In this document: in pieces, positions 38,903 to 63,262 of the stretch
How positions within the stretch are numbered: position 1 is the first letter of the stretch
How the letters are laid out: each line of letters begins with the position of its first letter
Source of the DNA: Winogradskyella vincentii
Lineage (GTDB): Bacteria > Bacteroidota > Bacteroidia > Flavobacteriales > Flavobacteriaceae
NCBI RefSeq assembly: GCF_020166345.1
Contig: NZ_JAIUJS010000001.1
Coordinates: 496,001-560,000 of the forward strand
Length of the DNA stretch: 64,000 nucleotides
Reading direction: 5' to 3'
Notes under the pieces: model-generated
The model's database searches: none
What the model was told of the DNA's origin: nothing
Seen by the model: the letters and a program-made list of their open reading frames with translations, nothing else
Program-made: the position numbers and the translations under genes

Positions 38903-38994
38903 CAAAAGTATTGGTATTGACCTTCAAAAAATTTTAATTTAGATTAATACGCTTCTAAGTGTAGACGAATGGCAATTTGGTGTAGATGATTAAA
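38903..38994 (-). promoter_or_regulatory. LytTR-type site A and -7 element (receiver-glycosyltransferase operon)
   Basis: The -7 element on the minus strand is TACTTTTG (38903-38910, perfect). Half-sites on the + strand are ATTTAGATTAATAC (core base 38941, 31 bp from the -7), GTGTAGACGAATGG (38963) and GTGTAGATGATTAA (38984), with steps of 22 and 21 bp. The intergenic gap is shared with the divergent membrane-protein gene starting at 39056, which could also be affected. Confidence 0.75.
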
Positions 38995-39055
38995 AATAGA
39001 ACGACCTCTTTATTTATATATCTTTACACCATTGATATTAGCATTAAGGTCTTAT

Positions 39056-42000: not shown

Positions 42001-42145
42001 TGGTTTACCTAATGAGGACATTTCTGATAAAATAGTGGCGGATAGAATTGTTAATCATAATAATACAGAACATCAACAAATTATACATGGAGAATACAAT
42101 TTTATAAAACTTGAAGTAAATACCTATATAGGCAATCCTAACTAA
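39056..42145 (+). CDS. Large polytopic membrane protein with periplasmic NTF2-like and FxLYD-type domains
   Basis: 1029 residues from the ATG at 39056 (an upstream TTG frame opening at 39032 is less likely). Residues 1-400 contain about ten membrane helices with TTYDALIHLFFADHY in the first outer loop, like GT-C or 6-pyruvoyl-tetrahydropterin-synthase-related membrane proteins. Further helices lie near 565 and 620. Residues about 640-750 look like an NTF2/DUF4878-type domain (SPENAILAYYDALDFKGFEK), and about 780-1000 contain two FxLYD-like beta domains (AIVGEIQNIDNVPSDVV, YLFGNIINTGTEEVT). It may act in assembly or transfer of the exopolysaccharide at the membrane. It is coupled by TAATG overlap to the next gene. 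Confidence 0.75.
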   Translation: MKNASNKYLTVALLIGIAFHGTSIFFTLETTYDALIHLFFADHYSGSWFEPWNYKWYTGFTVMSYPPLVHQSIAALSFIGGLKFGMFTIALIGIILFITGVYRFSLLITSNRTVAGYASVLAVFSSSFVETLHIFGQLPSIIGISVLMHALPEIYLWLKTGKWRYLATSLSLISVTVTSHHVTPIFGMVFFIFPLIGMVIMDDAREKVQTIKEITIKVFMSSFFKLFKRIISFGMLSLTIIIGCILPYWINSKNNPITQVPIPHGSRDNFLEITSSGLVFFLIPWGVLLVLLPYIFYRYYSKRYLFFGLSITILFILGTGGTTPIPRMVLGETAFNILTLDRFTLWASIMSLPLFGEFAYRFVEGDLKTLIQDRYGAIFHRLSGGILAGLFLFMTIFTMSLGYFKPSQPQKIKMLPIVNFLNQDQHDQWRYMTLGFGDQMAWLSAQTNALSVDGNYHSARRLPELTTRPIERLENSKFKGVEGIGSLQQFLTTPEKYNLKYIFSNDKFYDPILYFCGWQRLRQLENGIMVWEKLNVPPLSSILPKEDVGTWQKILWGTVPFLTVIIAFILNVQFLLVHTLKTRITADPLYMKFKNNYSKFSKGLLKASHIWSIILAVIVGYGIYIFYIKNESHHSPENAILAYYDALDFKGFEKAHSLINPESDLTIAQYMLEVSVTDGLLSSYAKLDAISTEIISNTDSLASVKVFTDWITPLEKIKQTDYKKLVKLNGKWYLQPDDINIDLPPDQLYSDNLTKYFNQGRRRITTEQTHHEDVLKQPVLEILDAKLVKYKNSYAIVGEIQNIDNVPSDVVLKGTLYNDENKKLATYNAKHHIKHKLLPKEVSSFRINFEGIAWSKTNDSIPKTFNPDEFTPIELEEQPTKFNLQAAGNISGSDLFKNTAVSVTKKDKDYLFGNIINTGTEEVTIPQLLVSYYDADKKLKWVDHLFIEEGVRQQRQQNFKYKMIDTSPIETISEDMSNCYVNGLPNEDISDKIVADRIVNHNNTEHQQIIHGEYNFIKLEVNTYIGNPN

Positions 42146-43356
42146 TGATAAAATCTATTTACATATCGTTATTTGTTTTCATCTTGATTTGTTTGGTTTC
42201 AATACAAACAAAAAGTTTAGAAGATTCTTATGTGTTAAAATCCAACAAATCAGAATTCATTGCTGGCGAACATGTCCAACTCGAATTTGGTTACAATACA
42301 GATTCTGATGTTATGCTATATTGCTCAAATAGCTACGGTTCAATTTTACTAGATCCTGAAATAAGCGCTAAGATTCTTAAATTTAATATCCCAGATTCAA
42401 TTTCAAAAAAATCTGGCGTTTTAAACTGGAAACTGATTGCCAAAACCAATAATCTACAAGGCAGTATTAATGTGAAGCCCAAACCATCTATAAAATCACT
42501 TGAAAGTTATTTAGGCCCTCCAAGTATTGAAGCTGGTGGTACAGATTATACCATGCTCGTAGTTATACCCACTGACGATTTAGATAATCCTATGGCAGAT
42601 AGCACTAAAGTGCAGATTAAGCACCAATTCTTGAATAATGAAATAAGTGATACTGTATCCACCTTACATGGATTTACATATAAAACTATTAATTCTTATA
42701 AGGAAAGTGGAAGGATTTTAATTAGCTCAGAATGTTTGGATTTGAACTCAAAAGAATACGATGTCAATGTTATGCCAGCCATACCAACCAATTTTACAAT
42801 TAAAGCAGAGCGAATCCATAATTATGCAGATGGTAATCAAATTACAACGTTTAAGACGTCCCAAATTATAGACAGATTTAACAATGTGGTTAGCGACGGT
42901 ACTTTTGTTACCTTTTTTATAACTGATCAAAATGGTAATAAAACACAAACTTATGGCTCTACCATTAATGGCATTGCAACAGCGAAAATGTTGCATCCAG
43001 ATCATGAAGAGCAGTGGTCCGTCAAAGCCTATATTGAAGGTATGGCAAACAGTGAAACCATTACCTTAGGCTTTAAACAAGCGATATCAAATTTTGAAGC
43101 AGCATTGTCCGATGACAATAGAACTATAACTGTAGGTCCGTTGCAAAGCTTTATGAAACAGCGTGTGCCTGACGGTCTATTTATTACATTAAGCATCTAT
43201 AAAAACAAGGTTTTAGTAAATGAGATACAAGAGCAAAGCTATAACGGTATGGCAAACTTTTATTTAAGTGAAGATGAATATTCTAACGGCTCATATCATC
43301 TAGAAATAGAAACTGCAGGACTCTCTAAAACCCTTACAAACATCACCTATGAATAG
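42145..43356 (+). CDS. Exported Ig-like/invasin-like protein of the polysaccharide locus
   Basis: A 403-residue protein with an N-terminal hydrophobic segment (residues 5-22) acting as signal or anchor and no other membrane helix. The rest is all-beta. Residues about 205-310 resemble a bacterial Ig-like (Big-1) domain: IDRFNNVVSDGTFVTFFITD, then STINGIATAKM. It probably lies in the periplasm or outside the cell and may bind or guide the glycan. Start overlaps the stop of the large membrane protein, and its end overlaps the next gene by 8 bp, so the three form one transcription unit. Confidence 0.75.
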   Translation: MIKSIYISLFVFILICLVSIQTKSLEDSYVLKSNKSEFIAGEHVQLEFGYNTDSDVMLYCSNSYGSILLDPEISAKILKFNIPDSISKKSGVLNWKLIAKTNNLQGSINVKPKPSIKSLESYLGPPSIEAGGTDYTMLVVIPTDDLDNPMADSTKVQIKHQFLNNEISDTVSTLHGFTYKTINSYKESGRILISSECLDLNSKEYDVNVMPAIPTNFTIKAERIHNYADGNQITTFKTSQIIDRFNNVVSDGTFVTFFITDQNGNKTQTYGSTINGIATAKMLHPDHEEQWSVKAYIEGMANSETITLGFKQAISNFEAALSDDNRTITVGPLQSFMKQRVPDGLFITLSIYKNKVLVNEIQEQSYNGMANFYLSEDEYSNGSYHLEIETAGLSKTLTNITYE

Positions 43357-44872
43357 TAAAAGCAAAAACATATTGCGTGGTGTAATACTCCTTATCTACC
43401 TACTTATTATGGCATTAGTAATTTATGGCATTGCAGCAATATTTTCGTATCTAAACACTGGTGCAGATAGAAGTTCGATGTTGCATACAGAGATAAAACA
43501 AGTTGAACAATATCTACCTAAATTTAATTGGGAACCTATAAATAACGAAGGCAGACCAATAGATGAGCAAACTCTTAATTCAATAGAGAACGATTATTTA
43601 GATGCATGGTATGTAAAACATATAGCATACAAAACCAATTCAATAGTTGGTATTGATGATTATTATACTGAAAGTGCACGTCTAAATATATTTAACATTA
43701 TTGATGTCAATACAAAAAATCGGGTTTCAATTGACGGCATAACCCTTTCTCACAGCCCTAATCTAGAGTTCTTCAGTGAAGATGGCCAAATGGTTGTACT
43801 CACAGATAATAATGTTATTGAATACAAACGCATTTTTAAGGGTGAACAACTTATTTCAGAAGTAAACGAAATATCAACTTACAAAGTAACCTTGCTCTTA
43901 GAGGATGGATTTTGGAGAATTAGACATCTCGTTAAAATTAATAGTGAATTTTATAATCCTGAGACTATTTCCAAACCCTTAGGCATCTCAACTATTAAGG
44001 GTACCAATTATTATCCTCAGGATACACCTTGGAATATGTTTGGTGATGATTTTAATAGATCAATAATCGCTCAAGATTTTAAACTAATTAATTCCTCTGG
44101 CCTCAATAGCATAAGAATCTTTGTACCGTATGAAGATTTTGGAAAGTCTAGGGTCAAAACGGAAAAATTGGAAAAATTGATCGAAGTATTAGATCTAGCA
44201 GAGCAGAATAATCTCAAGGTATTGATAACTCTTTTTGACTTCTATGGAGATTATTCGGTTATAGATTGGTCATTAACGCAGTTTCATGCCACAACAGTTA
44301 TAAATTCTATAAAAAACCATAAAGCATTACTAGGTTGGGATATTAAAAATGAACCAAATTTAGATTTTGAATCCCGAGGTAAATCATTGGTTTTGGCATG
44401 GTTAGATAAAATGATAGATCACGTTAAGTCCTTAGATCCAAACCATCCTGTTACTATTGGCTGGTCTAACACTAAAAGTGCAAGTCTATTAAATGAGAAG
44501 CTAGACTTTATTAGCTTTCATTATTATGAAGATTTAGCCAATCTTCCAGAGCTATACACATCCATAAAAACTAAAATTAAAACTAAACCTATTATCATTA
44601 CAGAATATGGTTTGTCGTCTTATAATGGATTTTGGAATCCTTTTGGAGATTCTGATAAAGACCAAGCGAATTACCATAACAACATTCAAACCATTTTTGA
44701 GGCAAATGATATTCAATTTATGTCATGGACCTTATATGATTTTACTGAAATACCGAAGGAAGTCGTAGGTAGACTTCCTTGGCGTAAAAATGCTCAAAAG
44801 CACTTTGGTTTTATCGATAAAAATGGGGCAAAAAAGGCATCGTTTGCGTATATATCCTCTTCTAAAGAATAA
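43349..44872 (+). CDS. Membrane-anchored GH5-like glycoside hydrolase
   Basis: A 507-residue protein with one N-terminal membrane helix (about 12-32), a domain of unknown type (40-200, possibly NTF2-like) and a C-terminal TIM barrel (215-505). Barrel signatures: STIKGTNYYPQD, LNSIRIFVPYEDF, GWDIKNEPNLDF (acid/base Glu after Asn) and PIIITEYGLSSYNG (nucleophile Glu). These place it in the GH5/GH-A clan, near cellulase or mannanase types. Hydrolases of this sort in polysaccharide operons usually trim or release the polymer in the periplasm. The 3' end overlaps the convergent GT4 gene by 11 bp. Confidence 0.85.
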   Translation: MNSKSKNILRGVILLIYLLIMALVIYGIAAIFSYLNTGADRSSMLHTEIKQVEQYLPKFNWEPINNEGRPIDEQTLNSIENDYLDAWYVKHIAYKTNSIVGIDDYYTESARLNIFNIIDVNTKNRVSIDGITLSHSPNLEFFSEDGQMVVLTDNNVIEYKRIFKGEQLISEVNEISTYKVTLLLEDGFWRIRHLVKINSEFYNPETISKPLGISTIKGTNYYPQDTPWNMFGDDFNRSIIAQDFKLINSSGLNSIRIFVPYEDFGKSRVKTEKLEKLIEVLDLAEQNNLKVLITLFDFYGDYSVIDWSLTQFHATTVINSIKNHKALLGWDIKNEPNLDFESRGKSLVLAWLDKMIDHVKSLDPNHPVTIGWSNTKSASLLNEKLDFISFHYYEDLANLPELYTSIKTKIKTKPIIITEYGLSSYNGFWNPFGDSDKDQANYHNNIQTIFEANDIQFMSWTLYDFTEIPKEVVGRLPWRKNAQKHFGFIDKNGAKKASFAYISSSKE

Positions 44873-46076
44873 CTTCTTGAGAGGTAGTGTTTACAACATT
44901 TTCATGTTGCATTAATTGCTTAAATGTATCTATGTACATTTGTGCAATTTGAGACATAGGGTGCGCTGTTGCAGCCTTATAATTTGTTTTAGCTAAACGC
45001 AATCTGTAAGCTTCATTTACAACTAAAGCTTCAATAGCATTTGCTAAACTACCAACACTGGTTGGATCAAAAAATTCACCCATATAACCTTCATCCTTAA
45101 CTAACAATGCTAAATCTCCTAAATCTGGCATTACTACAGCTTTTCCATAGCTTCCGGCTTGATGTAATACTCCAGAACTTCCAGTTGTGGATGTATAAGG
45201 AAATACCACCACAGCACTTTCCTTAAATAATTTTGGCACTTCTTGTTCTTCTACGTAACCTGTAAATCTTACTTGAGGTACATGATTGTATTTTTCTTTT
45301 ACCGACTCTAAGTAACCTGGTACATTTGGATTATCTGTTCCAGCAATAACAACTTCCAAATCCAATCCAGTAGATTGTCTTACACGTTCAACAGCTTCTA
45401 TCATACCTTCTACTTTTTTGTAGGTTCCGAATTTCCCAAAAGTCATTATCTGTAAAGGACCATCAGGCAAACTATAGTCTGGCTGCTCAGGAATTTCAAA
45501 CGTTCCATGTGGTATCAATTTTACATTCGATGTCAAATACTTAGACTCAAGAATGTTTACATATTTCTGCATGGTTACGGCAACAGTATCAGCTTGTAAA
45601 ATGAGCTTTGTCAAGGTTGTTCCTATAAAACCATATATTTTCTGCATCAATCTATTAGATGTAAATCCTGCGCTTCCTAAATCTACTTCTTCTAAAATAT
45701 TATGAAGCAATACGATATTTGGAATACGCTTTAACTTACACACCAACGGTAACATCAATCCTAAAGCCGCAGCTACTTTTTTGTCTCCAAACTTCATAAA
45801 CTGAAGATTGAATAAAACCGAGTCTGGTTTTGTTTGGTTAATAGCCTTTGTTACTGTAAAAATATTCTTGTAGCTGTTAAACGACCAACATTCCTTTACA
45901 GTTATCTTACAACCAGCTTCAGTAAAATTTAAATCCTTTTGACCTTCTGTTCTATCAGTTAACAAAATTAATTCTGTTACCTCCTGATTCTGTCTAAATT
46001 GTTTTACTAAATGGTATGCATATTCATTAAGTGTTACTTTACTTGGTGGATATGCTGTTACTATTGCTAATTTCAT
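44862..46076 (-). CDS. Glycosyltransferase family 4
   Basis: A 404-residue cytoplasmic GT-B enzyme. The N-terminal MKLAIVTAYPPSKVTLNEYA, central VKLIPHGTFEIP and MTFGKFGTYKKVEGMIEAV, and donor-binding SAVVVFPYTSTTGSSGVL are typical of GT4. It adds a sugar from a nucleotide donor to the growing glycan. It converges on the GH5-like gene and lies downstream of the flippase gene with a 98-bp gap that carries its own LytTR-type site, so it can be expressed separately. A PelF-like polymerase role is possible but not shown. Confidence 0.9.
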   Translation of the reverse strand: MKLAIVTAYPPSKVTLNEYAYHLVKQFRQNQEVTELILLTDRTEGQKDLNFTEAGCKITVKECWSFNSYKNIFTVTKAINQTKPDSVLFNLQFMKFGDKKVAAALGLMLPLVCKLKRIPNIVLLHNILEEVDLGSAGFTSNRLMQKIYGFIGTTLTKLILQADTVAVTMQKYVNILESKYLTSNVKLIPHGTFEIPEQPDYSLPDGPLQIMTFGKFGTYKKVEGMIEAVERVRQSTGLDLEVVIAGTDNPNVPGYLESVKEKYNHVPQVRFTGYVEEQEVPKLFKESAVVVFPYTSTTGSSGVLHQAGSYGKAVVMPDLGDLALLVKDEGYMGEFFDPTSVGSLANAIEALVVNEAYRLRLAKTNYKAATAHPMSQIAQMYIDTFKQLMQHENVVNTTSQEVIL

Positions 46077-46100: not shown

Positions 46101-46190
46101 CAAATTTGCGTTATATCAACCACTTAAATCGTAGTCTTTAGGCGGGCTACCTTTTACTGTAGACGAATGGTTTTTTACTTTAGATTAACC
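46101..46190 (-). promoter_or_regulatory. LytTR-type site B and -7 element (GT4 gene)
   Basis: The -7 element on the minus strand is CAAATTTG (46101-46108, 7 of 8 to TAnnTTTG). Half-sites on the + strand are CTTTAGGCGGGCTA (core 46140, 32 bp from the -7), CTGTAGACGAATGG (46161) and CTTTAGATTAACCT (46182), each 21 bp apart. The outer half-site lies over the last codons of the flippase gene. Confidence 0.7.
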
Positions 46191-47434
46191 TTTTTTCGAA
46201 TTCTGTTTTCGTGCTTAAAAAAGCCTAGCTGAATCACTAGTAATAAGATCATGGCGATAATCTGCATATGAACAACTTGTTCTAAAGACTCATGAAAAAT
46301 AATGACTAAAGCCATTTGAAGCATCCCAAATATTCCAGATATAATTACTGGAACGTATTTGTCTAGGGATAGGTAGTAATATGCAAAAATGTTAGAGATT
46401 GCAAACATGGATGTAGCAATAGCATATTTCCATAATAATGGTGCCATGGCTAAATATTCATTTCCAAAGAGTATTTGTATTATAAGCTCCGGAAAACTCA
46501 AACAGGTCACTACAATAATTGTAGATATTACCGCAATGTAACCAACATATTTAAAAAGCACTGTTGCTGTTTCCCTACCTTCTTTTTTTAATTGTACAAC
46601 GGCAGGTAAAAGTAACATTACAAACATCCAGGCAATAAAATAAACTATGCGACCGATCAACGCAAGAGATGCGTATAAACCAGCCTCGTAAGATTCAAAA
46701 TAATGCTTTACCAATAGTATATCACTATTATTAATTATAATCTGTGTCAACTCATAAAAGGCCGTTAATAAAAAGAATCGTTTTATCTGCTTGCTATACT
46801 TCTTATCTAAACCAACCGCAGATTTTAGATTAATGTCACTACTCTTAAAAGGAAATAAACCAAAAACGAAGGACAATAATATTCCTATGGCAATAACCGC
46901 AGAAGACTTTAAATCAAACACTAATATTAGGCCAAGTGTTATTAAAAGCCTACTTAACATTTCACCTTGATAGGTAATAGATAAGGACTTAAACAACTTC
47001 TTACCCTGAAACGTACCTCTATTAACACTCATTAAAAAGTAAAGTGGTACACCACACCCAAAAATCACAAACATAGATTTTGAAGAGGTATTAAATAGTA
47101 CTTGAAGTTGTTCTGCAAATGCAATTATTCCTAATCCTAGAAGTACTCCGACTACAAATGATTGCTTATAGACTCTAGTAACAAAACTTGTAAAGACATT
47201 ACCTTCAAATAAAACAGAGAATTTTGCCGTTACCAACTGAAATGTCATTGCTATAAAAGACAACACCAAAAGAAATGTAATCAGTACAGCCGCATCAGCA
47301 AACGCAGTTGGACCAAGTACACGTCCTAAAATAAGGTTGTATAAATAATTACCGCCATTAACTGCCAATACACTAAGCATAAATAGTTGTTCCGGTGATA
47401 TTTTTTTAGATTTTAAAGTTGCTAATATTTGCAT
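46175..47434 (-). CDS. Polysaccharide flippase, MOP superfamily (Wzx/PelG-like)
   Basis: A 419-residue membrane protein with about twelve hydrophobic segments. The N-terminal region with NGGNYLYNLILGRVLGPTAF is typical of oligosaccharide flippases. It would move lipid-linked or nascent glycan across the inner membrane. It lies 22 bp downstream of the STAS gene on the same strand, so both are expected to be expressed from LytTR site C. Confidence 0.88.
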   Translation of the reverse strand: MQILATLKSKKISPEQLFMLSVLAVNGGNYLYNLILGRVLGPTAFADAAVLITFLLVLSFIAMTFQLVTAKFSVLFEGNVFTSFVTRVYKQSFVVGVLLGLGIIAFAEQLQVLFNTSSKSMFVIFGCGVPLYFLMSVNRGTFQGKKLFKSLSITYQGEMLSRLLITLGLILVFDLKSSAVIAIGILLSFVFGLFPFKSSDINLKSAVGLDKKYSKQIKRFFLLTAFYELTQIIINNSDILLVKHYFESYEAGLYASLALIGRIVYFIAWMFVMLLLPAVVQLKKEGRETATVLFKYVGYIAVISTIIVVTCLSFPELIIQILFGNEYLAMAPLLWKYAIATSMFAISNIFAYYYLSLDKYVPVIISGIFGMLQMALVIIFHESLEQVVHMQIIAMILLLVIQLGFFKHENRIRKKVNLK

Positions 47435-47456: not shown

Positions 47457-47735
47457 TTATGCTGCTGCTTTTATGTTGTTTTTTGCATCGTTCGTTTCTT
47501 CACCATCTCCAATAACATAAAATGTAGTATTAGATGCGTTAGCATGTGCATATAAACTGCGAAGCGTTAGTAATCCGTTAATATCTATAAATGCAATATG
47601 CTGTAGATCAAGAATTACCTCACCAGTAGTATTTAATATAGTCTCGCAATGGTTTTTTAACTGATTTGCAGTAGTAGAATTAACAATTCCTTCTACTGTA
47701 AAAATGCCGTTATTTTCATTAATTGTAAGTGCCAT
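47457..47735 (-). CDS. STAS-domain protein of the polysaccharide locus
   Basis: 92 residues from the ATG at 47735 (MALTINENNGIF). A longer frame opens at 47798, but it begins upstream of the predicted transcription start. It is a single STAS domain: VILDLQHIAFIDINGLLTL. The position of the phospho-Ser of SpoIIAA (DSxG) is DING here, so this copy may not be phosphorylatable. The C-terminus is NNIKAAA. STAS proteins regulate biofilm loci by partner switching in other bacteria; that role here is inference from its position ahead of the flippase gene. Confidence 0.8.
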   Translation of the reverse strand: MALTINENNGIFTVEGIVNSTTANQLKNHCETILNTTGEVILDLQHIAFIDINGLLTLRSLYAHANASNTTFYVIGDGEETNDAKNNIKAAA

Positions 47736-47776
47736 AATTTTATAATTTTTAAATAGATTTTTGTTCAATACTGACG

Positions 47777-47846
47777 CAAATATCAAGCGTAATTCCATGT
47801 ATGAGCATTATATTTCGATGGATGGCAGTTTGCTGTAGGTGAATGA
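47777..47846 (-). promoter_or_regulatory. LytTR-type site C and -7 element (STAS-flippase genes)
   Basis: The -7 element on the minus strand is GATATTTG (47777-47784, 7 of 8). Half-sites on the + strand are ATTTCGATGGATGG (core 47816, 32 bp from the -7) and CTGTAGGTGAATGA (47837), 21 bp apart. The divergent TPR-barrel gene starts 45-75 bp away on the other side and may share control. Confidence 0.7.
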
Positions 47847-53735: not shown

Positions 53736-56309
53736 TTAATTAACAATTAGTTTTAAGGTATTGTATTCACTAGAATTACTAATGAGTTTACAGAAGTATA
53801 TTCCTGAACTTAAATTATTTCTTTCTATCGTAATTGTATTATTCCCAGCAGTAGCATTTAATTTTGAAAGATGTACTTGCTCTCCTAATTGGTTGTAAAC
53901 AACAAACTGAAAGGTTACATTATTGGAAGCTCTAAACTGTATTTGTGCCATAGATGTCATTGGATTAGGAAATACTCTTAGTGTTTTAGCCTCTATTTCT
54001 TCCTCCTCAATTGACAATGCTGTATCTTGAGAGAGTCTTAGATTATTTAAACTCACATACTTGTTTACTGCAGCACCATCCTCCGAAATCATTGTAAAAA
54101 CTATAGTTACAACATCGTCTAATTCTGGGTTAGTTGTAGATATAGACTCAAATTCTGATAATGGCAATATATATTCTTGCAATTGACCTGATAATGCAAT
54201 TGTAGTTTTAAACTGATCTTCCCAATTAGTTATACTTTGTTTTACAAATGTAATTTCTAGATTTCCGGTACCTTTTGCACTTAATTTTAAAGTATTATAA
54301 TCTCTAAGATCCACAGCGTTAAATCTAGGAGTCAAGGCTCTGTAAGCAGCAACATAACTACTGGTAGTTGCGCGTAAATCTAAGTTTCTCTCAATAGGAA
54401 ATTCATCTTCTTCAAAGTCAATTGAGTTTTGAGTAATAGTATACTGACTAACATTAGTTCCTTCTTGTGAGTCGTCTATTCCCCAAGGGCCATCAGACAT
54501 AAAAAGATCATCTGGTGTAGCAACACCATCACCAATTCTAAAACCAATATCAAATAAACCGCCTGTTTCTATGGTGTGATTGGTGATGTATTGCTCACTT
54601 AAGGTTAGGGTACTATTTAAATTTTCAAATTCGTTTGTTTCTGTTGTTCTAAATCCTGCATCTAAGCTTACCGCTTCGGTTGCATTTGTATTTACAATTT
54701 GCAATTCTAAGTTGCCATTGTTGTACTTTCCTTTTCTAACAAATACAGTTGGAGGTGTAGAATTATTATAATCAGATATTGGCTTTTCAATAGCTAATAG
54801 GTTAAGTACTTCTTCACCTAACAGATATAAATTATCCAAAGTATTGGTCCAAATCTGAAAATTATAGTAGGTTACATTATCCTCATATTGATCGAGATTC
54901 CAGTGGCTTTCAATAACAAAATTGGCGTCATTATTTACAACCTTTGCTGAAAGACTAAGTACAAATTCATAGGTACCATCTACATTTTTTATGATCGACT
55001 TTATAAACTGTTGCTCATTTATGTCTATGGTAGAAACCGAAATTAATTCTGCGCCTAACAATCTATCACAGATATACTTGGTATGCTCATACACACCATC
55101 TTCTGTTTTTAATGCCAAAATTGAGGCAAATGGTGTGTCGTTTTCCATGTAATCCACAGCAAATATTTCAGTTGCATTGGTAATACTCAATAAATCTGAA
55201 GGCGTGGCATTAATGGTTTCAGTTTCGCCTATTATATTAAGTGGAATAAAATCCTCTAATGTAAAATCACCATTACGCTTTGCATATTGTAGTCCTCTGG
55301 TAACACGAGGAGCCGTTGCAACGTCAAAACTATAACCAGTTTTTGCTCTATTGAAGTTTCGCTTATTGATCTGCTCTGACAGCCTGTTGTTACTTTCTAA
55401 TCCGCCATCATTACTTTTAGACGTCGGTGGTTGCACTACATCGCACATGCCATAGCCAGAACATGAAGGATCTTGGCAATCTATTAACCCATCACCATCA
55501 TCATCAATTCCATTATCACATATTTCTTGGGCTACTGGAGCAGTTGGGCAACGAGCACCATCATTACTAGAACTAGATGGCCCAAATGCAAAAAGGTTAG
55601 AATCCATATCCTCAACACCATTTACATTCTGCACACTTTGTATGACATAGATAGTACCTGTTTGATTTGCAGATACATAAAAACGACCATCTGCATCAAA
55701 GTATACAGCACCATATGTATAATTATTACCTTCTAATATAGGTACCACACCTAGGGATGACACCTGTCCATTTGAAGGATCTATTCTATATAAAATATTA
55801 GTTCCTTTCTCAACAGTATACAATTGACCATCTACAGCATTGAATGCCCAATCATGAATACTTATTCCTTGAGACAGTGATGCTGTTTCCTGATGTTGTG
55901 CGTAATTACTAGAATCTGGGTTTAGATCGATTTTATAATAGGTCGTGCCACCACCTTTTAAGAAATAAATACCTTCTGCACTGACATCACCTACATAACG
56001 ATTATTATTAGGTAATTCTGGGACATAATAAACCGTAGTTGTAAAATTCTTTCCTATCCTAACAATTTCCTTTGATCCTTTAAGTGATCCCCAAAAAAAT
56101 CCATCTGCAGGATTATAAGCAGCGGCATTTATAGAAGCGTCTGTTACATTTTCTTTAACCATGTAAGAATTACCAGAAGCCAAATCAATAGCAAATACAT
56201 CATTATATTGAAAGAGATATGCATTATTGTCACAATTAAATGGGACATCCTGTGCCTTAAGCGGAGTGCTTATTATTAATATTATTACTAAGAATAAAAT
56301 ATTTTTCAT
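53736..56309 (-). CDS. T9SS-exported protein with propeller-like N-terminus and MopE-like repeat
   Basis: 857 residues from the ATG at 56309, which gives a clean signal peptide (MKNILFLVIILIISTPLKAQ). Alternative in-frame starts at 56327 and 56333 remain possible; one further upstream (56417) lies inside the regulatory site. Residues about 25-260 form a DUF6923-like beta-propeller. It is followed by a MopE-type acidic repeat (CDNGIDDDGDGLIDCQDPSC), probably calcium-binding. A middle beta domain (340-600) and a carbohydrate-binding-like sandwich (620-775) come next. The end is a type A T9SS sorting domain (785-857, LRVFPNPMTSMAQI ... SSGIYFCKL). It is predicted to be a cell-surface protein. 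LytTR site D and a perfect -7 element precede it. Confidence 0.85.
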   Translation of the reverse strand: MKNILFLVIILIISTPLKAQDVPFNCDNNAYLFQYNDVFAIDLASGNSYMVKENVTDASINAAAYNPADGFFWGSLKGSKEIVRIGKNFTTTVYYVPELPNNNRYVGDVSAEGIYFLKGGGTTYYKIDLNPDSSNYAQHQETASLSQGISIHDWAFNAVDGQLYTVEKGTNILYRIDPSNGQVSSLGVVPILEGNNYTYGAVYFDADGRFYVSANQTGTIYVIQSVQNVNGVEDMDSNLFAFGPSSSSNDGARCPTAPVAQEICDNGIDDDGDGLIDCQDPSCSGYGMCDVVQPPTSKSNDGGLESNNRLSEQINKRNFNRAKTGYSFDVATAPRVTRGLQYAKRNGDFTLEDFIPLNIIGETETINATPSDLLSITNATEIFAVDYMENDTPFASILALKTEDGVYEHTKYICDRLLGAELISVSTIDINEQQFIKSIIKNVDGTYEFVLSLSAKVVNNDANFVIESHWNLDQYEDNVTYYNFQIWTNTLDNLYLLGEEVLNLLAIEKPISDYNNSTPPTVFVRKGKYNNGNLELQIVNTNATEAVSLDAGFRTTETNEFENLNSTLTLSEQYITNHTIETGGLFDIGFRIGDGVATPDDLFMSDGPWGIDDSQEGTNVSQYTITQNSIDFEEDEFPIERNLDLRATTSSYVAAYRALTPRFNAVDLRDYNTLKLSAKGTGNLEITFVKQSITNWEDQFKTTIALSGQLQEYILPLSEFESISTTNPELDDVVTIVFTMISEDGAAVNKYVSLNNLRLSQDTALSIEEEEIEAKTLRVFPNPMTSMAQIQFRASNNVTFQFVVYNQLGEQVHLSKLNATAGNNTITIERNNLSSGIYFCKLISNSSEYNTLKLIVN

Positions 56310-56345
56310 AGCGTAATAGTTCTTCATTTTCATTCTATTTGATAA

Positions 56346-56436
56346 CAAATCTACGCTGGTTCTCAGCTTTTTATAAGAATTTTCGATTGACCAATTTATT
56401 ATTGCGGTGGCTGACAATTAAGTATCGATGAACGGG
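56346..56436 (-). promoter_or_regulatory. LytTR-type site D and -7 element (T9SS protein gene)
   Basis: The -7 element on the minus strand is TAGATTTG (56346-56353, perfect). Half-sites on the + strand are TTTTCGATTGACCA (core 56384, exactly 31 bp from the -7), ATTGCGGTGGCTGA (56405) and GTATCGATGAACGG (56426), each 21 bp apart. The predicted transcript starts near 56340. Confidence 0.78.
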
Positions 56437-56537: not shown

Positions 56538-56650
56538 CAAATATATGTTTATCAAATAGTGAATTTGTCAATTTTAGTTAGAATTACTTTTACTAATGAT
56601 AAATAACCGATAAGTGTCAACGAATGATTTTTTGGCATCAAATGAAAACT
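56538..56650 (-). promoter_or_regulatory. LytTR-type site E and -7 element (candidate small RNA 1)
   Basis: The -7 element is TATATTTG (56538-56545, perfect). Half-sites on the + strand are TTTTAGTTAGAATT (core 56576, exactly 31 bp from the -7, weak), a poor match at 56597, GTGTCAACGAATGA (56618, strong) and GCATCAAATGAAAA (56639), all in 21-bp steps. It is the most degenerate of the eight sites. Confidence 0.6.
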
Positions 56651-56739: not shown

Positions 56740-56829
56740 CAAATTTAAACGAAGTTAATTCATTAAATCATGGTTTTCGATACTATGTTTTGTTGTAACG
56801 TTGGTTGACCTAAAAGTGTCGACAAATGG
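56740..56829 (-). promoter_or_regulatory. LytTR-type site F and -7 element (candidate small RNA 2)
   Basis: The -7 element is TAAATTTG (56740-56747, perfect). Half-sites on the + strand are TTTTCGATACTATG (core 56778, exactly 31 bp from the -7), GTAACGTTGGTTGA (56799) and GTGTCGACAAATGG (56820), each 21 bp apart. It lies immediately downstream of the LytTR regulator stop codon. Confidence 0.75.
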
Positions 56830-56834
56830 TAATT

Positions 56835-57545
56835 CTACAATAAATTTAAACGCTTCATCAACTCTGGTCTGTTAGAACGACTAACAGGAATTACGTCTTT
56901 TTTAATCAATACACTATTATCCTCAATGTCTATGATTTTGTCAACATTAATAATATAGGAGCGATGTACTTTTAAAAATAGACTATCTGGCAGTTTCTCT
57001 TCAATTTTCTTTAAGGTTGAATGCACCGTATAGTTTTTATCTTCCGTTTTCACATGAATATAATCACCTTTAGCTTCTACTAGATAAATACTTGGTATAT
57101 CTATTTTTATTAAACGCCTATCAATATTTACATAAAGGTCGTTTCCAGAACTGGTTTCTACTTTGTCTGATGCTGCTTTGGTCTTAGTCGGAGATTTAAC
57201 CGCCTTTGCTTTGTCAATAGCCTTGCTGAAACGTTCTAAACCAATGGGTTTAACTAAATAATCCACTATACAATCGTATTCAAACGCCTGAATTGCAAAG
57301 TTTGGATCTGATGTTGTTAATACTATTTTAGGTGGGTTCTTAAGGGTTTCTATAAAATCAAAACCAGTAAAATCTGGCATGTGTATGTCTAGAAAAATAA
57401 GATCTACCTCGTTTTGATTAAGGTACTTTATGGCCTGAATTGCATTTGGAAATTCTTCAAGAACATTTAATTCGGGAATGTTAGTGCAAAGTTGTGCGAT
57501 GATAGCTCTTGCTGTAGCCTCATCATCAATAATAATACAATTCAT
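56835..57545 (-). CDS. LytTR-family DNA-binding response regulator
   Basis: A 236-residue protein. The receiver (1-120) has acidic pair Asp7-Asp8 (IIIDDEA), phospho-acceptor Asp53 (LIFLDIHMP), Thr/Ser in VLTTSDP and Lys99 (YLVKPIGLE). The LytTR DNA-binding domain is at about 135-236 (SIYLVEAKGDYIHVKTEDK, FLKVHRSYIINVDKI). The class (AlgR, AgrA, VirR) binds two direct half-sites one or two helical turns apart. It is the last gene of the sensory operon, 9 bp after the Hpt gene, and is the obvious candidate to bind sites A-H. Confidence 0.94.
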   Translation of the reverse strand: MNCIIIDDEATARAIIAQLCTNIPELNVLEEFPNAIQAIKYLNQNEVDLIFLDIHMPDFTGFDFIETLKNPPKIVLTTSDPNFAIQAFEYDCIVDYLVKPIGLERFSKAIDKAKAVKSPTKTKAASDKVETSSGNDLYVNIDRRLIKIDIPSIYLVEAKGDYIHVKTEDKNYTVHSTLKKIEEKLPDSLFLKVHRSYIINVDKIIDIEDNSVLIKKDVIPVSRSNRPELMKRLNLL

Positions 57546-57554
57546 AAAATTAGA

Positions 57555-57872
57555 TTAAAGCGTCTTTAAAAAATCAGTCATGATTTGCAAAATGGCTTCA
57601 AAATCCTCTTGTCCATCCGTTTTGTGCTCAATTAAACTATCCTCATAGTTAACTGCAACTTCATAACTTCTTTCGAGTCCTAAAATACTAATTTTATGTT
57701 TAAGTTTATGAACGTTTGAGGCAGCAAGTTTATAATTACCAGCTGAAATATTACCTCTGTATTCTTGTTTCTCTAACGGAAATTCCTTTTTAATAATGCC
57801 TATAAGCTTTTGCTCAAACTCTTCATTGCCACCTGACATGCTTTGTATATAGGATAAATTGGGCTGTTCCAT
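57555..57872 (-). CDS. Hpt-domain phosphotransfer protein
   Basis: A 105-residue all-helical protein. The segment SNVHKLKHKISILGLER matches the Hpt helix with phospho-accepting His55. It has no other domain. It would shuttle phosphoryl groups between receivers and the kinases or the LytTR regulator. It is tightly linked: 1 bp after the histidine kinase gene and 9 bp before the LytTR gene. Confidence 0.88.
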   Translation of the reverse strand: MEQPNLSYIQSMSGGNEEFEQKLIGIIKKEFPLEKQEYRGNISAGNYKLAASNVHKLKHKISILGLERSYEVAVNYEDSLIEHKTDGQEDFEAILQIMTDFLKTL

Positions 57873-57873
57873 A

Positions 57874-59022
57874 TTATTTTTTTAGTGTAAAGTAAAAGGT
57901 TGTGCCTTCACTAACCTGAGATTCTAACCAAATTCTACCACCATATAGATCTACTATTTTCTTTACAATAGATAATCCTATACCAGTAGACTCAGCGTTA
58001 TTTTCCAATTTTTCAAAAGCTCTAAATATTTTATCAAAATATACCTTATCAATTCCCTTGCCATTATCTTTAACATAAAATTCATAAGTGTCTCCTCTAT
58101 CCTCGCAACCTACTATAATCTTACCTTGAGCCTTATCATTATAGGCAACAGCGTTGCTTATTAAATTTTGAAATAGCTGTTGCAATCTGTATTTATCACC
58201 TATTATAACTGGCAATTCTTTAACAATAACCTCAATATTATCAGGTATCTGTATCATCTTAATAAGGTCCTTTAAAAGTAAATTTAAATTTACTTTATAA
58301 GTACTTACCTTATTTTTTCCAATAGTAGAATATTCTAAAATACCATTAATTAGGGTATCCATTTTTTCAACACTGTCTCTAATAGTGCTAATTTGTTTGG
58401 CACCACTATCACCAAGCTTTTCAGAGTAATCATCCTTTAACCAAGTGGTTAATGTGTCAATACTTCTTAAAGGTGATTTTAAATCGTGAGATACCATATG
58501 TGCATAATCACTAAGCTCTTGGTTTTGTACTTCTAAATTATGTAATAAATTTTGTTGTTCTCTAAATGCCTTACAAGCTTTTAGATTAATAGAAAACTTG
58601 TTTATAACAGGTTGTAACTGAGATAAGTCTTTTGTAGTTATATTCTGTTTTTTTGAATATAAAAATAAATAGCCTTGCTCTTTTAAATTGAATATAGCAA
58701 CATAACCGTTTGTAATTGTAATTGGTGCTATTTTAGAAATTATGGTTGTATTGTCTAGTAGCGTCCAGTCTTTAATATCATTTAATATTTTATAAAACTC
58801 AGAGCTATATGCTTCTTCAACTTTTTCACCAAATGGTATTGAATAAGTTGAACTCATTTTATTATCATCGGTCTCTAATATCCAAGCTGCATTTAAATTT
58901 TTACGCTTCAAAATTAGCTTTAAAAACAAATCACAACTTTCTTTATAATCTAATGACTTACCAATAGCCATACCATATTCATAAAGCTGTAATATCCCTA
59001 GTATGTGATTTTCAATTTTCAT
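57874..59022 (-). CDS. Sensor histidine kinase 2 (paired with the FIST protein)
   Basis: A 382-residue cytoplasmic kinase without membrane helix. Residues 1-150 are a GAF-like sensor region. HisKA has His179 in HMVSHDLKSPLRSID, and HATPase_c is at about 270-382 with N-box QLFQNLISNAVAYND, DNGKGIDKVYF and STGIGLSIVKK. The HisKA segment is nearly the same as in the larger kinase of this operon, so the two are duplicates with different inputs. Its start overlaps the FIST gene stop, which suggests the FIST protein is its sensor partner. Confidence 0.93.
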   Translation of the reverse strand: MKIENHILGILQLYEYGMAIGKSLDYKESCDLFLKLILKRKNLNAAWILETDDNKMSSTYSIPFGEKVEEAYSSEFYKILNDIKDWTLLDNTTIISKIAPITITNGYVAIFNLKEQGYLFLYSKKQNITTKDLSQLQPVINKFSINLKACKAFREQQNLLHNLEVQNQELSDYAHMVSHDLKSPLRSIDTLTTWLKDDYSEKLGDSGAKQISTIRDSVEKMDTLINGILEYSTIGKNKVSTYKVNLNLLLKDLIKMIQIPDNIEVIVKELPVIIGDKYRLQQLFQNLISNAVAYNDKAQGKIIVGCEDRGDTYEFYVKDNGKGIDKVYFDKIFRAFEKLENNAESTGIGLSIVKKIVDLYGGRIWLESQVSEGTTFYFTLKK

Positions 59023-60119
59023 TATTCAAATAAACCAACGACTACTGTCTTATTATAAAATTCTAAAAAACCTTCTCCATAAGATGATATTTCACCTAAG
59101 GTTAAAGCACCTCCAATAGAAACATCTGGAAAACGAGTTTTAATCGTATTTGTAATTGCATTTAGCTCCTTATCAAAATTGTCCTCTAAAAATAAAATCC
59201 TAGAAATACAATCAATTAAAATAGCTTTTCGTGGTGATGAGGCTTGATTAATACTTTCTTCTGTAGCTGTCTTTGCCGCTTCGATTAAGGATACTTCATT
59301 TCCATTTAAAATGTCAACAACCATGTTATCTTCTAGCTCTCCTACACAGACTAATTCAACATTTTCATTTACCATTAGTGGATCTCTAACAATACACTCA
59401 GCATCTTCCTTAAGGATACCGAAGGGATATCCTTTTGCTATATCAAAGAAATTATCATCTGTAAATCTCTTACCAGAATGTTTTTCAACTATCGTTTTAT
59501 AAACATTAAATGGATTTTTCCAGTTGAGCTCTTTAATGACGTTACCCTCCGCTTTTGTAACAATAAAAGGACCACCAACTTTTTTCCACCCATGTCTTAC
59601 TCCAATTTTAGATGCCATTTGCATAATACACCCAACGGCCGCATCTTGATAAATGCCCTCGTTGGAAAACACACATGGTTTTTGTTGTAAACTTAAACTG
59701 CCTGCACCTCCTCCAAAATAGTTGGTTTGCATCCCATAATTTTGATATAGCTCACTTAAGTAATGAGAAATATTAGACGTTAAACCATCTACATAGGTAA
59801 AGAGGCTATAGTCTTTATCTTTTTTAAAATTAAACTTTGGTATAGTGTAATTTTTATCGCTTATATTCTTAATTAAAAACAATGACTCTGCATTGTTTAG
59901 TGTATTAATTACAATTCCTTTTTCTAGGATAGTATTACCATGTATTACTTTAGGAAATAACCCTCCAATAAATTTTAGTCCAGCTTCATTTAATTCAGAC
60001 AATAAAATATTAATATCTATCTCTGTGTGTTCACCTACGGATATTAGCACTGCGTTTTGGCCAACATGATTTGAGATTGCAGTAACAATTTCTGAACAAT
60101 TTTTAGATGTAATTAGCAT
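59022..60119 (-). CDS. FIST-domain protein, NosP-like putative haem/NO sensor
   Basis: A 365-residue soluble protein with FIST N-domain (about 25-210) and FIST C-domain (about 215-355). Recognisable parts: ELNEAGLKFIGGLFPKV, MQTNYFGGGAGSLS, KGYPFGILKEDAECIVRDP and SIGGALTLGEISSYGEGF. FIST proteins include NosP, a haem protein that senses nitric oxide and controls a co-encoded histidine kinase. The operon context (stop/start overlap with a kinase) is the same. Haem binding cannot be proven from sequence; small-molecule sensing other than NO is an alternative. Confidence 0.88.
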   Translation of the reverse strand: MLITSKNCSEIVTAISNHVGQNAVLISVGEHTEIDINILLSELNEAGLKFIGGLFPKVIHGNTILEKGIVINTLNNAESLFLIKNISDKNYTIPKFNFKKDKDYSLFTYVDGLTSNISHYLSELYQNYGMQTNYFGGGAGSLSLQQKPCVFSNEGIYQDAAVGCIMQMASKIGVRHGWKKVGGPFIVTKAEGNVIKELNWKNPFNVYKTIVEKHSGKRFTDDNFFDIAKGYPFGILKEDAECIVRDPLMVNENVELVCVGELEDNMVVDILNGNEVSLIEAAKTATEESINQASSPRKAILIDCISRILFLEDNFDKELNAITNTIKTRFPDVSIGGALTLGEISSYGEGFLEFYNKTVVVGLFE

Positions 60120-60120
60120 A

Positions 60121-62196
60121 CTATTTTTTTAAAGTGAAATGAAATGTTGTACCTTCATTTGGTTCTGACTCTAACCAAATATCACCTTTATAGAGGTCAA
60201 CAACTTTTTTTACAATTGATAAACCAATTCCTGTAGATTCTTTACTTTTCTTTAAAGAGTGAAATATTTTAAAAATATTATCATGATACTCTTTCTCAAT
60301 TCCTATACCGTTGTCTTTGACCGAAAACTGATAATACGATTTCTCATCTTTAACATCAATTTCTATAAGGCCATTATTCTTATTATTAAATTTAATGGCA
60401 TTACTTATAAGGTTTTGAAATAACTGTTGCAGTTTTGTTCTATCGCCCTTAATAACAGGTAATTTATTTAATACCTCTATAGATATATGATCTGGCACAA
60501 ATAAAATTTGCTTTAGTTCTGCAATAACAGAATTAAGATCTACTTCTCTTGAATCTTCTAGTTCATTGCCAATACTTGAGTATATTAGAATATCTGATAT
60601 GAGTTGCTCCATTTTCTCGAGCGTGGTTTCAATTAACGCAAAGTTTTGCTTACTCACCTCATCAAATAGGTCTTTATTGTCTTCTTTTATCCAGTTAACT
60701 AGAGCATCAATACTTCTTAAAGGTGATTTTAAATCGTGAGATACGATATGAGCATATTCTTGTAACTCGTCATTACTTTTACCCAAAGCATCTAATAGAA
60801 GCATATTTTTATATTCTACTTTTTCTCGTTCTCTAAGGTTAATTGCACTTTTTAACTGCATTGCTACTAAACTTGCAATGTTTACTAATGTTTTTAAGTG
60901 CTCCTTGGTAAAGTAATTCTTTAATGGATGTTCTGCATCTATAATACCAATGACTTCTCCATCACTTATAATTGGTACTGTTATTTCAGACAATCGTATT
61001 TCATCATCTACAACATACCTATTGTCTTTTCTGGTATCACTAATAATTTCTGCCACACCTGATCTTGCTACACTACCTACGATACCATCACCAATTGGTA
61101 GAGTAATTTTATTTTCTATCTCGTTATCCGCATTAATTTTGTTTCCGTAGGCTGAAATTTGTTCTAAGGTATTCTTCTCCTTATCTAAGATGTAAATGAC
61201 ACAGTCTTTAGAATCTAAATACTGTGCAATATTGTTTGTAATCTCCCAGGCGATTTCATAGATATCCATCTTACCTAGTAGAGACTTAGCAACATCATTT
61301 ATTAAATCTAACACCAGTGCCTGTTCTCTTTCAAATGTCACATCCTCAACGAGAGCCACTTGATATTTTATATTTCCCTTATTATCTCTTACCGCACTAA
61401 CAGTAGTTTTAGCCCAGAGAACTGAATCATTTTTTTTCTTATATCGCTTATGAAGTACAAAATTATCAATCTCGCCAGCATCCATTTTAGTAATGTGCTC
61501 TTGAGATTGTGGAAAATCCTCTGGAAATGATATGTCTTTAACCGTAAGTTTTGAAAGTTCTTCTTCTGTATATCCTAATGTTTTTTGAATAGAATCATTA
61601 GTTCTTACAATTTTGCCATTTTGAGTAAGGACAATACCGATTGAAGAATTCTGAACAATAGCATCTAATTCACTTTTTTGCTCTTCAAGTGTCTCACTTA
61701 TCTGTTTAGTTTCAGTAATATCCCTAACAATACCTTGAGCCGCTATACTTACATTATTTTTCTCTTTAACTAAGCTAGCATTAATATGTACCCACCTAAC
61801 CTCATTATTTTTTGTGAGTATACGAGCTTCATAATCTTTAAAATGGCCTTTATTTATTAACTCTTTATAAGACTCCATAGCGTAATGGATATCTTCTTTA
61901 TAAAGCAGGTCCATTGCGGTTATATTCTCCTTTTCTAAATTGTAACCAAAAAGTTGAGTTGCAGCATCATTAAACTTAAGAATATTGCCGTTGACATCCA
62001 TTATTACATAGGCATCAACAATATTCTCAAAAATACCTTGTAGCTGATTAGATTTCTCAATTAATAACTCTTCTAATTTTTGTGAAGTTTGGAAAAGTTC
62101 TCTTGATTTTTCTTCAAGAATTTTTTCAGCTTCTTTGCGAGCTTGTTTTTCGCGTTCTAAGGCGCGTTTGTATATGTCAAGTTGATCTTGACTCAT
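60121..62196 (-). CDS. Sensor histidine kinase 1 with PAS and GAF domains (paired with H-NOX)
   Basis: A 691-residue cytoplasmic kinase. Order: coiled coil (5-55, RALEREKQARKEAEKILEE), PAS (about 50-170), PAS (about 175-295), GAF (about 300-455), HisKA with His487 (HIVSHDLKSPLRSIDAL), and HATPase_c (575-691; QLFQNLISNAIKFNN, DNGIGIEKEYH, STGIGLSIVKK). No membrane segments. Its start overlaps the H-NOX stop codon (TAATG), the usual arrangement for an H-NOX regulated kinase. Phosphate probably passes to the 137-residue receiver and/or Hpt protein. Confidence 0.94.
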   Translation of the reverse strand: MSQDQLDIYKRALEREKQARKEAEKILEEKSRELFQTSQKLEELLIEKSNQLQGIFENIVDAYVIMDVNGNILKFNDAATQLFGYNLEKENITAMDLLYKEDIHYAMESYKELINKGHFKDYEARILTKNNEVRWVHINASLVKEKNNVSIAAQGIVRDITETKQISETLEEQKSELDAIVQNSSIGIVLTQNGKIVRTNDSIQKTLGYTEEELSKLTVKDISFPEDFPQSQEHITKMDAGEIDNFVLHKRYKKKNDSVLWAKTTVSAVRDNKGNIKYQVALVEDVTFEREQALVLDLINDVAKSLLGKMDIYEIAWEITNNIAQYLDSKDCVIYILDKEKNTLEQISAYGNKINADNEIENKITLPIGDGIVGSVARSGVAEIISDTRKDNRYVVDDEIRLSEITVPIISDGEVIGIIDAEHPLKNYFTKEHLKTLVNIASLVAMQLKSAINLREREKVEYKNMLLLDALGKSNDELQEYAHIVSHDLKSPLRSIDALVNWIKEDNKDLFDEVSKQNFALIETTLEKMEQLISDILIYSSIGNELEDSREVDLNSVIAELKQILFVPDHISIEVLNKLPVIKGDRTKLQQLFQNLISNAIKFNNKNNGLIEIDVKDEKSYYQFSVKDNGIGIEKEYHDNIFKIFHSLKKSKESTGIGLSIVKKVVDLYKGDIWLESEPNEGTTFHFTLKK

Positions 62197-62735
62197 TAAT
62201 TTTTAGTAATAATAAATTTAACCTCAGTACCGTCTTCTTTTATTTTTTCAAGTACAATATTAGCAGTAGAATTAAAATGCTCAAACGTCTTATTCATTAA
62301 ACCTAATCCAAAATGATGCATGGCCCTACTAGAGGTATAAATCATTACCAAAGAGTTTTGAGTTTTCTCTAAAACTTCAAATGTTGGTAATTCTGCATCT
62401 GGATATATTTTTCTTACTTCAACATGGATATGATTTTCAATAGAAGATATCATTTCTATAGGATCATTATAAGTTGCTAGCAATCCTGGGTAACTATCCT
62501 CTAGAACACTAAAAAAGTGCTCTGCGTACACCAATAGTAAATTGTCTATGGACAAACCTGTATTTTTACTGAGGTGTTGCAATAGCTGTAGCATCTCTGA
62601 AAAACTATACGTACCGACTGAAGTATACACACCATTAGATTCTAAATCTGAGCTAGAAATAATTTTATCTACCATTTCTAATCCAAACTTATCTTCAACC
62701 AATTCTAAAAATTCTGTAAATACAATTCCTTTCAT
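62196..62735 (-). CDS. H-NOX (haem nitric oxide/oxygen binding) protein
   Basis: A 179-residue protein of the HNOB family. It starts MKGIVFTEFLELVEDKFG and carries the proximal haem ligand His104 in NHIHVEVRKIYPDAELP. The propionate-binding YxSxR motif is Tyr133-Ser135-Arg137 (IYTSSR). The length and these three features define a bacterial H-NOX, which senses nitric oxide and usually inhibits or activates a neighbouring kinase. Start overlaps the receiver gene by 4 bp, stop overlaps the kinase gene by 1 bp. Confidence 0.94.
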   Translation of the reverse strand: MKGIVFTEFLELVEDKFGLEMVDKIISSSDLESNGVYTSVGTYSFSEMLQLLQHLSKNTGLSIDNLLLVYAEHFFSVLEDSYPGLLATYNDPIEMISSIENHIHVEVRKIYPDAELPTFEVLEKTQNSLVMIYTSSRAMHHFGLGLMNKTFEHFNSTANIVLEKIKEDGTEVKFIITKN

Positions 62736-63145
62736 TTCTCGATTATTAATTCATTTATACTCCAATATGATAATAATTTTTCGATTTTTGAAACATAGTC
62801 TTCATATTTCAGTGGTTTTAAAATATAGCCAGCAATACCAACTTTATAGCATTCTAATAAATCGCGTTGATTATTGGAAGTGGTTAAAATTATGGTAGGA
62901 ATATACTTAAGCCTGTCATCTGCTTTTAAGATTTTTAAAAATTCAATTCCATTAATCTTAGGCATATTTAAATCCAACAAAATGATATCTGGTAAATTGT
63001 CTTTTTGTTCTAACAATTTTAAAGCTTCCTCACCATTATTAGCCTCCTTAATATTATGATTAAGTTGTAATGAACCAATTGCTCTGTTGAGCTTCATCAC
63101 TTCAATCATATCATCCTCAATGAGTAATATCTTCAAATTTTTCAT
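62732..63145 (-). CDS. Single-domain response regulator (Rcp1-like)
   Basis: A 137-residue receiver without output domain. Acidic pair Glu10-Asp11-Asp12, phospho-acceptor Asp58 (IILLDLNMP), Thr/Ser in ILTTSNN and Lys110 (YILKPLKY). The alpha-4 insertion and length resemble Rcp1-type receivers that pair with GAF-containing kinases. It opens the sensory operon and is preceded by LytTR site G. Confidence 0.92.
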   Translation of the reverse strand: MKNLKILLIEDDMIEVMKLNRAIGSLQLNHNIKEANNGEEALKLLEQKDNLPDIILLDLNMPKINGIEFLKILKADDRLKYIPTIILTTSNNQRDLLECYKVGIAGYILKPLKYEDYVSKIEKLLSYWSINELIIEK

Positions 63146-63169: not shown

Positions 63170-63262
63170 CAAATTAGCTTAACTCTATGTTCTGTGAGAT
63201 TTATTTCGGTTGCAGGTATCTAAGTGTCGTTGGATGGTAGATAAGTGTCGACGAATGGTAAT
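63170..63262 (-). promoter_or_regulatory. LytTR-type site G and -7 element (sensory operon, autoregulation)
   Basis: The -7 element on the minus strand is CTAATTTG (63170-63177, imperfect). Half-sites on the + strand are ATTTCGGTTGCAGG (core 63207, 30 bp from the -7), GTGTCGTTGGATGG (63228) and GTGTCGACGAATGG (63249), each exactly 21 bp apart. The last two share a TAAGTGTCG start and TGGTA end. It sits 58-115 bp upstream of the operon. Confidence 0.78.

Follow-up and report, generated by a model that had tools for sequence, protein, structure and literature searches.

A conserved, probably nitric oxide-sensing split phosphorelay predicted to control a surface polysaccharide locus in Flavobacteriaceae

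Flavobacteriaceae probably possess a conserved nitric oxide (NO)-sensing split phosphorelay that controls a surface or matrix polysaccharide locus by transcription. We analyzed 64,000 nucleotides of the Winogradskyella vincentii genome (hereafter the window), in which this relay is encoded by a seven-gene operon. Three points are new: the relay is conserved, its second sensor is exchangeable, and a predicted operator of LytTR leads to the polysaccharide locus; a search of the available literature for the seven-gene operon found no description of it.

All seven open reading frames (ORFs) are on the minus strand in the order REC–H-NOX–HK1–FIST–HK2–Hpt–LytTR, and nearly all overlap or abut, with intergenic gaps along the operon of -4, -1, +1, -1, +1, and +9 nt. 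A sequence-only reading of the window had proposed this order, the mostly overlapping start and stop codons, and a co-encoded Hpt, single-domain receiver, and LytTR regulator; the window's ORF list, the Pfam domains, and the conserved residues confirmed each of these points. The genes are:

62732..63145, minus strand: REC, single-domain response regulator of 137 aa, which opens the operon (Pfam Response_reg 1e-23; D11, D58, and K110 invariant in 62 homologues)
62196..62735, minus strand: H-NOX NO sensor, 179 aa (HNOB 3e-39; H104, Y133, S135, and R137 in 64/64 homologues; ~86% identity to PDB 6BDD)
60121..62196, minus strand: HK1, cytosolic histidine kinase paired with H-NOX (Pfam PAS-PAS-GAF-HisKA-HATPase; follows H-NOX in nearly all complete-operon loci)
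59022..60119, minus strand: FISTa, putative sensor of FIST lineage a (Pfam FIST_N 2e-27 and FIST_C 2e-19, both above cut-off; not NosP by the curated model)
57874..59022, minus strand: HK2, HisKA-HATPase kinase (Pfam) with a sensory N-terminal region of ~170 aa that is specific to FISTa clusters
57555..57872, minus strand: Hpt, stand-alone histidine phosphotransfer protein (weak Pfam Hpt; H55 in 58/58 homologues, with the HKxKHK motif around it conserved)
56835..57545, minus strand: LytTR response regulator, REC plus LytTR DNA-binding domain, the predicted output (Pfam LytTR 2e-21, Response_reg 5e-18)

Upstream of the operon, a 130-aa ORF (63280-63672, minus strand) has no Pfam match, and its homologues occur at few other loci (16 hits).

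The heme His104 and the YxSxR residues of the H-NOX protein are invariant among its homologues, which, together with the identity to PDB 6BDD/6BDE, upholds the earlier assignment to this NO-sensor family. The distal Tyr140 of O2-binding H-NOX proteins corresponds, as we assume from the offset to the YxSxR motif, to Phe142 here, which is consistent with sensing of NO rather than O2. The window H-NOX presumably binds NO, as judged from the closely similar protein of known structure. That protein is the H-NOX of Kordia algicida, which the available text of the study treats as an isolated sensor without operon context (PMC7356049). The two PDB entries name it "2,4-dihydroxyhept-2-ene-1,7-dioic acid aldolase", an annotation error. 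K. algicida encodes the same seven-gene operon (L100/L203), with a FIST of another lineage than the window's.

Neither kinase has a receiver domain. HK1 and HK2 of the window are 51% identical across the catalytic part, and their HisKA segments match, as had been noticed before: the H-box helix around the phospho-accepting His has a mean identity of 68% between HK1 and HK2 of the same locus versus 33% to other flavobacterial kinases, which argues for a partner common to both. A phylogeny of the kinase cores gave no firm branching order for HK1 and HK2. The window Hpt scores 16.7 bits against Pfam Hpt, below the 24.6 cut-off, and we accept this weak match as genuine because the phospho-acceptor H55 is invariant. 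The REC aspartate is conserved in 62/62 homologues, and the active-site residues expected of REC, Hpt, and LytTR are in place. All parts of a Spo0-type split phosphorelay are thus present: kinases without receivers, a single-domain REC, a stand-alone Hpt, and a DNA-binding protein with a REC domain. In Bacillus, the Spo0 system comprises several kinases (KinA-E), a single-domain receiver (Spo0F), a stand-alone phosphotransferase (Spo0B), and a DNA-binding receiver (Spo0A). The proposed flavobacterial relay shares this layout, but has a true Hpt for Spo0B, LytTR for Spo0A, sensors that are separate proteins, and all components in one operon.

The operon is a recurrent feature of the family. HNOB was found in 146 of 399 sampled genomes from the same family. 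In 75 of these 146, the window's included, H-NOX is followed at 1.3-2.7 kb by a FIST gene on the same strand, and in one further genome FIST is just upstream of H-NOX; this co-location is far beyond chance. Gene order was read at ~64 loci from the sampled genomes and on 80 named genome contigs, two sets that partly overlap. Among the resulting 130-odd Flavobacteriaceae loci, ~100 have the full seven-gene order and 34 are without FIST-HK2. The operon exists in three states: REC-HNOX-HK1-FISTb-HK2-Hpt-LytTR (85 entries), the same order with FISTa (10 entries, of which one repeats the window), and, where FIST-HK2 is missing, REC-HNOX-HK1-Hpt-LytTR (34 entries). The FIST-HK2 slot is empty in strain ALC-1, the nearest relative by H-NOX (93%). 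Nearly all complete operons have retained both REC and Hpt, even where they encode just one kinase. The three states of one operon indicate that the relay is a family-wide module and FIST-HK2 an optional cassette, and both this conservation and the optional, exchangeable nature of the cassette had been missed by the sequence-only reading.

That reading had also placed two putative heme NO sensors in the operon, which stands for H-NOX but not for the FIST protein. The window FISTa scores 30.9 bits against the NCBIfam NosP model NF041558, whose curated cut-off is 450 bits (FISTb types reach 57-59 bits). We aligned the FISTs with annotated Azospirillum NosP and NosP-like proteins, several of which adjoin NahK-family or PAS-domain proteins. 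The C-terminal His of the H-NQT motif is present in 7/7 NosP and NosP-like proteins and in 11/12 FISTb, whereas all FISTa have Tyr or Phe at that position. The window FIST is 74-79% identical to the FISTs of six cluster loci and 47-48% to those of two others, but only 21-25% to those of most clusters. It groups with haloarchaeal and Salinibacter FISTs, a lineage other than that of most clusters; these relatives have cysteines in common with FISTa and also adjoin kinase-like PAS/GAF proteins. The low score, the missing histidine, and the lineage led us to reject NosP as an identification. FISTa may still hold heme, since it has an invariant histidine of its own, H176, which aligns a single column away from a histidine of NosP. 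The nearest fold to a structure model of FISTa is human FBXO22.

The catalytic cores of HK2 from FISTa and FISTb clusters are 61% identical (51% to HK1), whereas their N-termini are unrelated except for the linker. The ~170-aa N-terminal region is probably GAF-like by secondary structure, and the HK2 structure model (pLDDT 72) matches generic kinases only. Cores of one lineage with unrelated N-termini suggest that the sensor half was exchanged on a common kinase core, so that the FIST and the HK2 N-terminus together appear to be one exchangeable sensor. FIST genes adjoin kinases in other contexts as well. The window's genome has a second FIST-kinase pair (L121 5160-8011; G000 C11 ~33-36 kb), in which the FIST scores 92.6 bits to NosP, nearer than the operon FIST yet below the curated cut-off, and the kinase is a hybrid of 576 aa similar to NahK-type kinases. 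Tandem arrays of 2-4 FIST genes beside kinases occur in flavobacteria G339, G226, G303, and G066 (L123, L124, L125, and L129); G339 belongs to the same genus as the window and has no H-NOX.

The output of LytTR is readable from the DNA as tandem predicted operators, which the earlier reading had missed. The operon is flanked by copies of AAGTGTCGACRAATGGTA, perfect or nearly so, which occur only in that genome region. A motif ACCATTCGTCKACACTTA precedes the operon, a gene for a T9SS-secreted protein, and the exopolysaccharide locus; the two are the same motif read differently. The predicted sites in the window are:

63221..63257, minus strand: operator ~100 nt before REC, made of two direct repeats at a distance of 21 bp (CATTCGTCGACACTTA with 0 mismatches, CATCCAACGACACTTA with 3)
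56813..56828, minus strand: operator just beyond the end of the relay operon (2 mismatches)
56611..56626, minus strand: operator between LytTR and the T9SS gene (1 mismatch)
56419..56434, minus strand: weak operator at a conserved position upstream of the T9SS gene (3 mismatches)
46154..46169, minus strand: operator before the glycosyltransferase GT1 (2 mismatches; kept between Wzx and GT1 in other genera)
38956..38971, minus strand: operator before REC-GT2, second half-site 21 bp away (0 mismatches; conserved)

The motif precedes the operon in 107/124 distinct loci, mostly at -75 to -125 and on the coding strand (0 on the opposite strand; shuffled control 0.3%), and the T9SS gene in 71/87 loci, again on the coding strand. 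Of 78 close motif pairs, 74 are spaced by 21 bp. The targets of LytTR regulators are, as a general rule, direct repeats about two helical turns apart, each ~9 bp long and separated by 10-13 bp (PMC11347149), and the core site of AlgR is CCGTTCGTC (PMC4064291), one base off the commonest core here (CCATTCGTC, 81 loci). The 21-bp tandem geometry and the AlgR-like core lead us to read CATTCGTCKACACTTA as the LytTR operator, which LytTR presumably binds. Because of their promoter-like position, tandem form, presence in other genera, and recurrence at polysaccharide genes, we rejected the idea that the repeats around the operon are an insertion footprint.

Genome-wide, the motif occurs in 59/65 cluster-positive genomes (146 sites, 119 of them within 45 kb of H-NOX), with six in which it was not found at 2 mismatches, versus 15/65 cluster-negative genomes, whose 15 sites are close to the reversed control and hence about chance (Fisher 1e-15; related genomes are treated as independent, so that this and the other Fisher value below overstate independence and are indicative only). 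All 5 matches in the window's genome fall within one 24-kb stretch. Four relay operons without an adjacent LytTR are also without the motif, and two of these genomes (G173 and G228) have LytTR elsewhere, behind the motif. At L280 (4442-5923) and L291 (6409-7895), LytTR has moved to a place behind the operator motif and is accompanied there by a single-domain REC of its own; the relocated LytTR of L280 is followed by DUF6923, Wzx, and GT1.

A homologue of the T9SS protein is encoded within 4 kb downstream of the operon in 96/130 loci. Beyond it lies the polysaccharide locus, in which REC-GT2 is divergent from the genes for the membrane, exported, and glycoside-hydrolase-like proteins, and which Wzx, STAS, and mannose-6-phosphate isomerase complete. 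The T9SS gene and the genes of the locus are:

53736..56417, minus strand: secreted protein with DUF6923 and a T9SS sorting tail (Pfam; true start probably the ATG near 56333)
47457..47798, minus strand: STAS-domain protein (Pfam STAS 4e-9; conserved position)
46175..47434, minus strand: Wzx-like polysaccharide flippase (Pfam Polysacc_synt_3; conserved)
44862..46076, minus strand: group 1 glycosyltransferase GT1 (Pfam)
43349..44872, plus strand: glycoside-hydrolase-like protein with a GH2-type barrel (Pfam)
42145..43356, plus strand: 403-aa protein, probably exported (conserved neighbor; signal-like N-terminus)
39032..42145, plus strand: 1037-aa membrane protein (PTPS_related membrane match)
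37685..38905, minus strand: REC-GT2, fusion of a receiver with a family 2 glycosyltransferase that likely starts near 38872 (Pfam Response_reg 7e-23, Glycos_transf_2 3e-21; conserved)
37176..37667, minus strand: short GT2 glycosyltransferase beside REC-GT2 (Pfam Glycos_transf_2; conserved in many genomes)
36165..37166, minus strand: mannose-6-phosphate isomerase (TIGR00218 above cut-off)

Most of 20 further regions, from many genera, show the same order of this locus and the same predicted sites. The gene for the 1037-aa protein, used as a marker, is present in 50/65 cluster-positive versus 3/65 cluster-negative genomes (Fisher 2e-18; related genomes treated as independent) and lies within 32 kb of H-NOX in 46 of the 50; the remaining 15 cluster-positive genomes are without the marker. 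Where the polysaccharide locus is unlinked, L287 and L288 have the motif before GT1 with 3 mismatches. No motif was found at the promoter positions in G165 (L289) and none was recognizable at the promoters in K. algicida (L286), whose polysaccharide locus is 257 kb away. The REC-GT2 fusion is conserved at the locus in many genera and is possibly a phosphorylation-controlled polysaccharide enzyme. No GGDEF or EAL domains were found in the window's genome, in agreement with the earlier expectation of an output other than cyclic-di-GMP (c-di-GMP).

We propose that NO binds H-NOX, which would modulate HK1, and that the exchangeable FIST sensor would modulate HK2, whose phospho-donor helix is closely like that of HK1. 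Both kinases would phosphorylate the one single-domain REC, from which the phosphoryl group would pass to Hpt and on to LytTR (His-Asp-His-Asp, as in the Spo0 layout); we infer this order of phosphotransfer as the simplest wiring. LytTR would bind the tandem repeats 21 bp apart before its own operon, an autoregulation, and would also act before the T9SS-secreted protein, GT1, and REC-GT2 with the divergent polysaccharide genes. On this reading, NO would reach matrix polysaccharide independently of c-di-GMP.

The same parts could instead form a branched network like Shewanella HnoK-HnoB/C/D, in which REC and LytTR would each be phosphorylated by HK1 and HK2 without intermediates, and Hpt would have REC-GT2 or some other protein as its partner. 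Such branching would suit the two co-encoded receivers, the kinases without REC domains, REC-GT2 as a third possible acceptor, and the pairing of LytTR with its own REC copy in L280 and L291, but we consider it doubtful, since the retention of REC with Hpt, even in single-kinase operons, is what a relay needs. It is likewise unlikely that the FIST is a NosP-like heme sensor and that both inputs report the same gas. A FIST fold beside a kinase recalls nosP-nahK, and the C-terminal histidine of NosP recurs in FISTb, which most clusters have; against this, the window FISTa is without that histidine, falls far below the NosP cut-off, and has haloarchaeal and Salinibacter kinship.

A reading of the CATTCGTCKACACTTA repeats as another regulator's sites or as a repeated element could appeal to LytTR binding being a prediction and to some cluster-positive genomes being without sites. 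It is highly improbable given the 21-bp direct-repeat geometry with an AlgR-like core, the strand-specific position near -100, a motif that follows LytTR where LytTR moves, and its near-chance level in genomes without the cluster. We regard as equally remote a relay that serves denitrification or nitrosative-stress defense rather than polysaccharide. The NO input and the nosZ gene of the window's genome would fit that role, but nosZ is present in 53/146 H-NOX genomes versus 130/253 others, if anything a negative association that does not support a link to denitrification over the 399 genomes, and the genes behind the predicted operators are those for polysaccharide and T9SS proteins rather than for N-oxide enzymes.

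Related systems share single elements of the proposed relay. Nisbett reportedly found in 2019 that the signals of H-NOX and NosP meet in a single multi-component network that affects biofilm in Shewanella oneidensis. There, H-NOX/HnoK and NosP are encoded at separate loci with c-di-GMP enzymes as outputs, whereas the flavobacterial genes form one operon with a transcriptional output and no GGDEF/EAL. The Vibrio H-NOX/HqsK-LuxU-LuxO and V. cholerae NosP/VpsS-LuxU-LuxO pathways likewise lead from a stand-alone heme sensor through a cytosolic kinase and a shared Hpt to a transcriptional response regulator (PMC6769237), but each of their kinases is a hybrid that includes a receiver, separate loci encode H-NOX and NosP, and the output is LuxO and quorum sensing, not LytTR and an adjoining polysaccharide locus. 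In Pseudomonas aeruginosa, AlgR/AlgZ likewise places a LytTR regulator on exopolysaccharide genes, with core CCGTTCGTC versus CCATTCGTC (PMC4064291); AlgR, however, does not require its sites to be tandem repeats, the kinase AlgZ is unrelated, and the system has no H-NOX. A survey of H-NOX genome neighborhoods lists FIST genes among the neighbors of group 1 H-NOX and, in its available text, does not analyze gene order, relay, operator, or polysaccharide locus (PMC8738867).

More tentatively, and with somewhat less than an even chance, the operon may be a c-di-GMP-independent biofilm switch that is widespread in marine Flavobacteriaceae. NO and a second, different small-molecule signal (through FIST cassettes a and b) would act on one relay, and LytTR and the phosphorylatable REC-GT2 would control matrix polysaccharide at the transcript and enzyme levels. 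Explanations of how NO controls bacterial biofilm usually invoke c-di-GMP enzymes. The window's genome, from abundant marine polymer degraders, has no canonical c-di-GMP enzymes yet encodes a relay dedicated to NO, with predicted operators that point to a locus for polysaccharide and T9SS surface protein. The swapped FIST cassettes are a natural experiment in sensor exchange on a kinase core, and K. algicida, whose H-NOX structure is solved, or other culturable genera would allow direct tests, for which the operator, its targets, and the sensors are known in enough detail.
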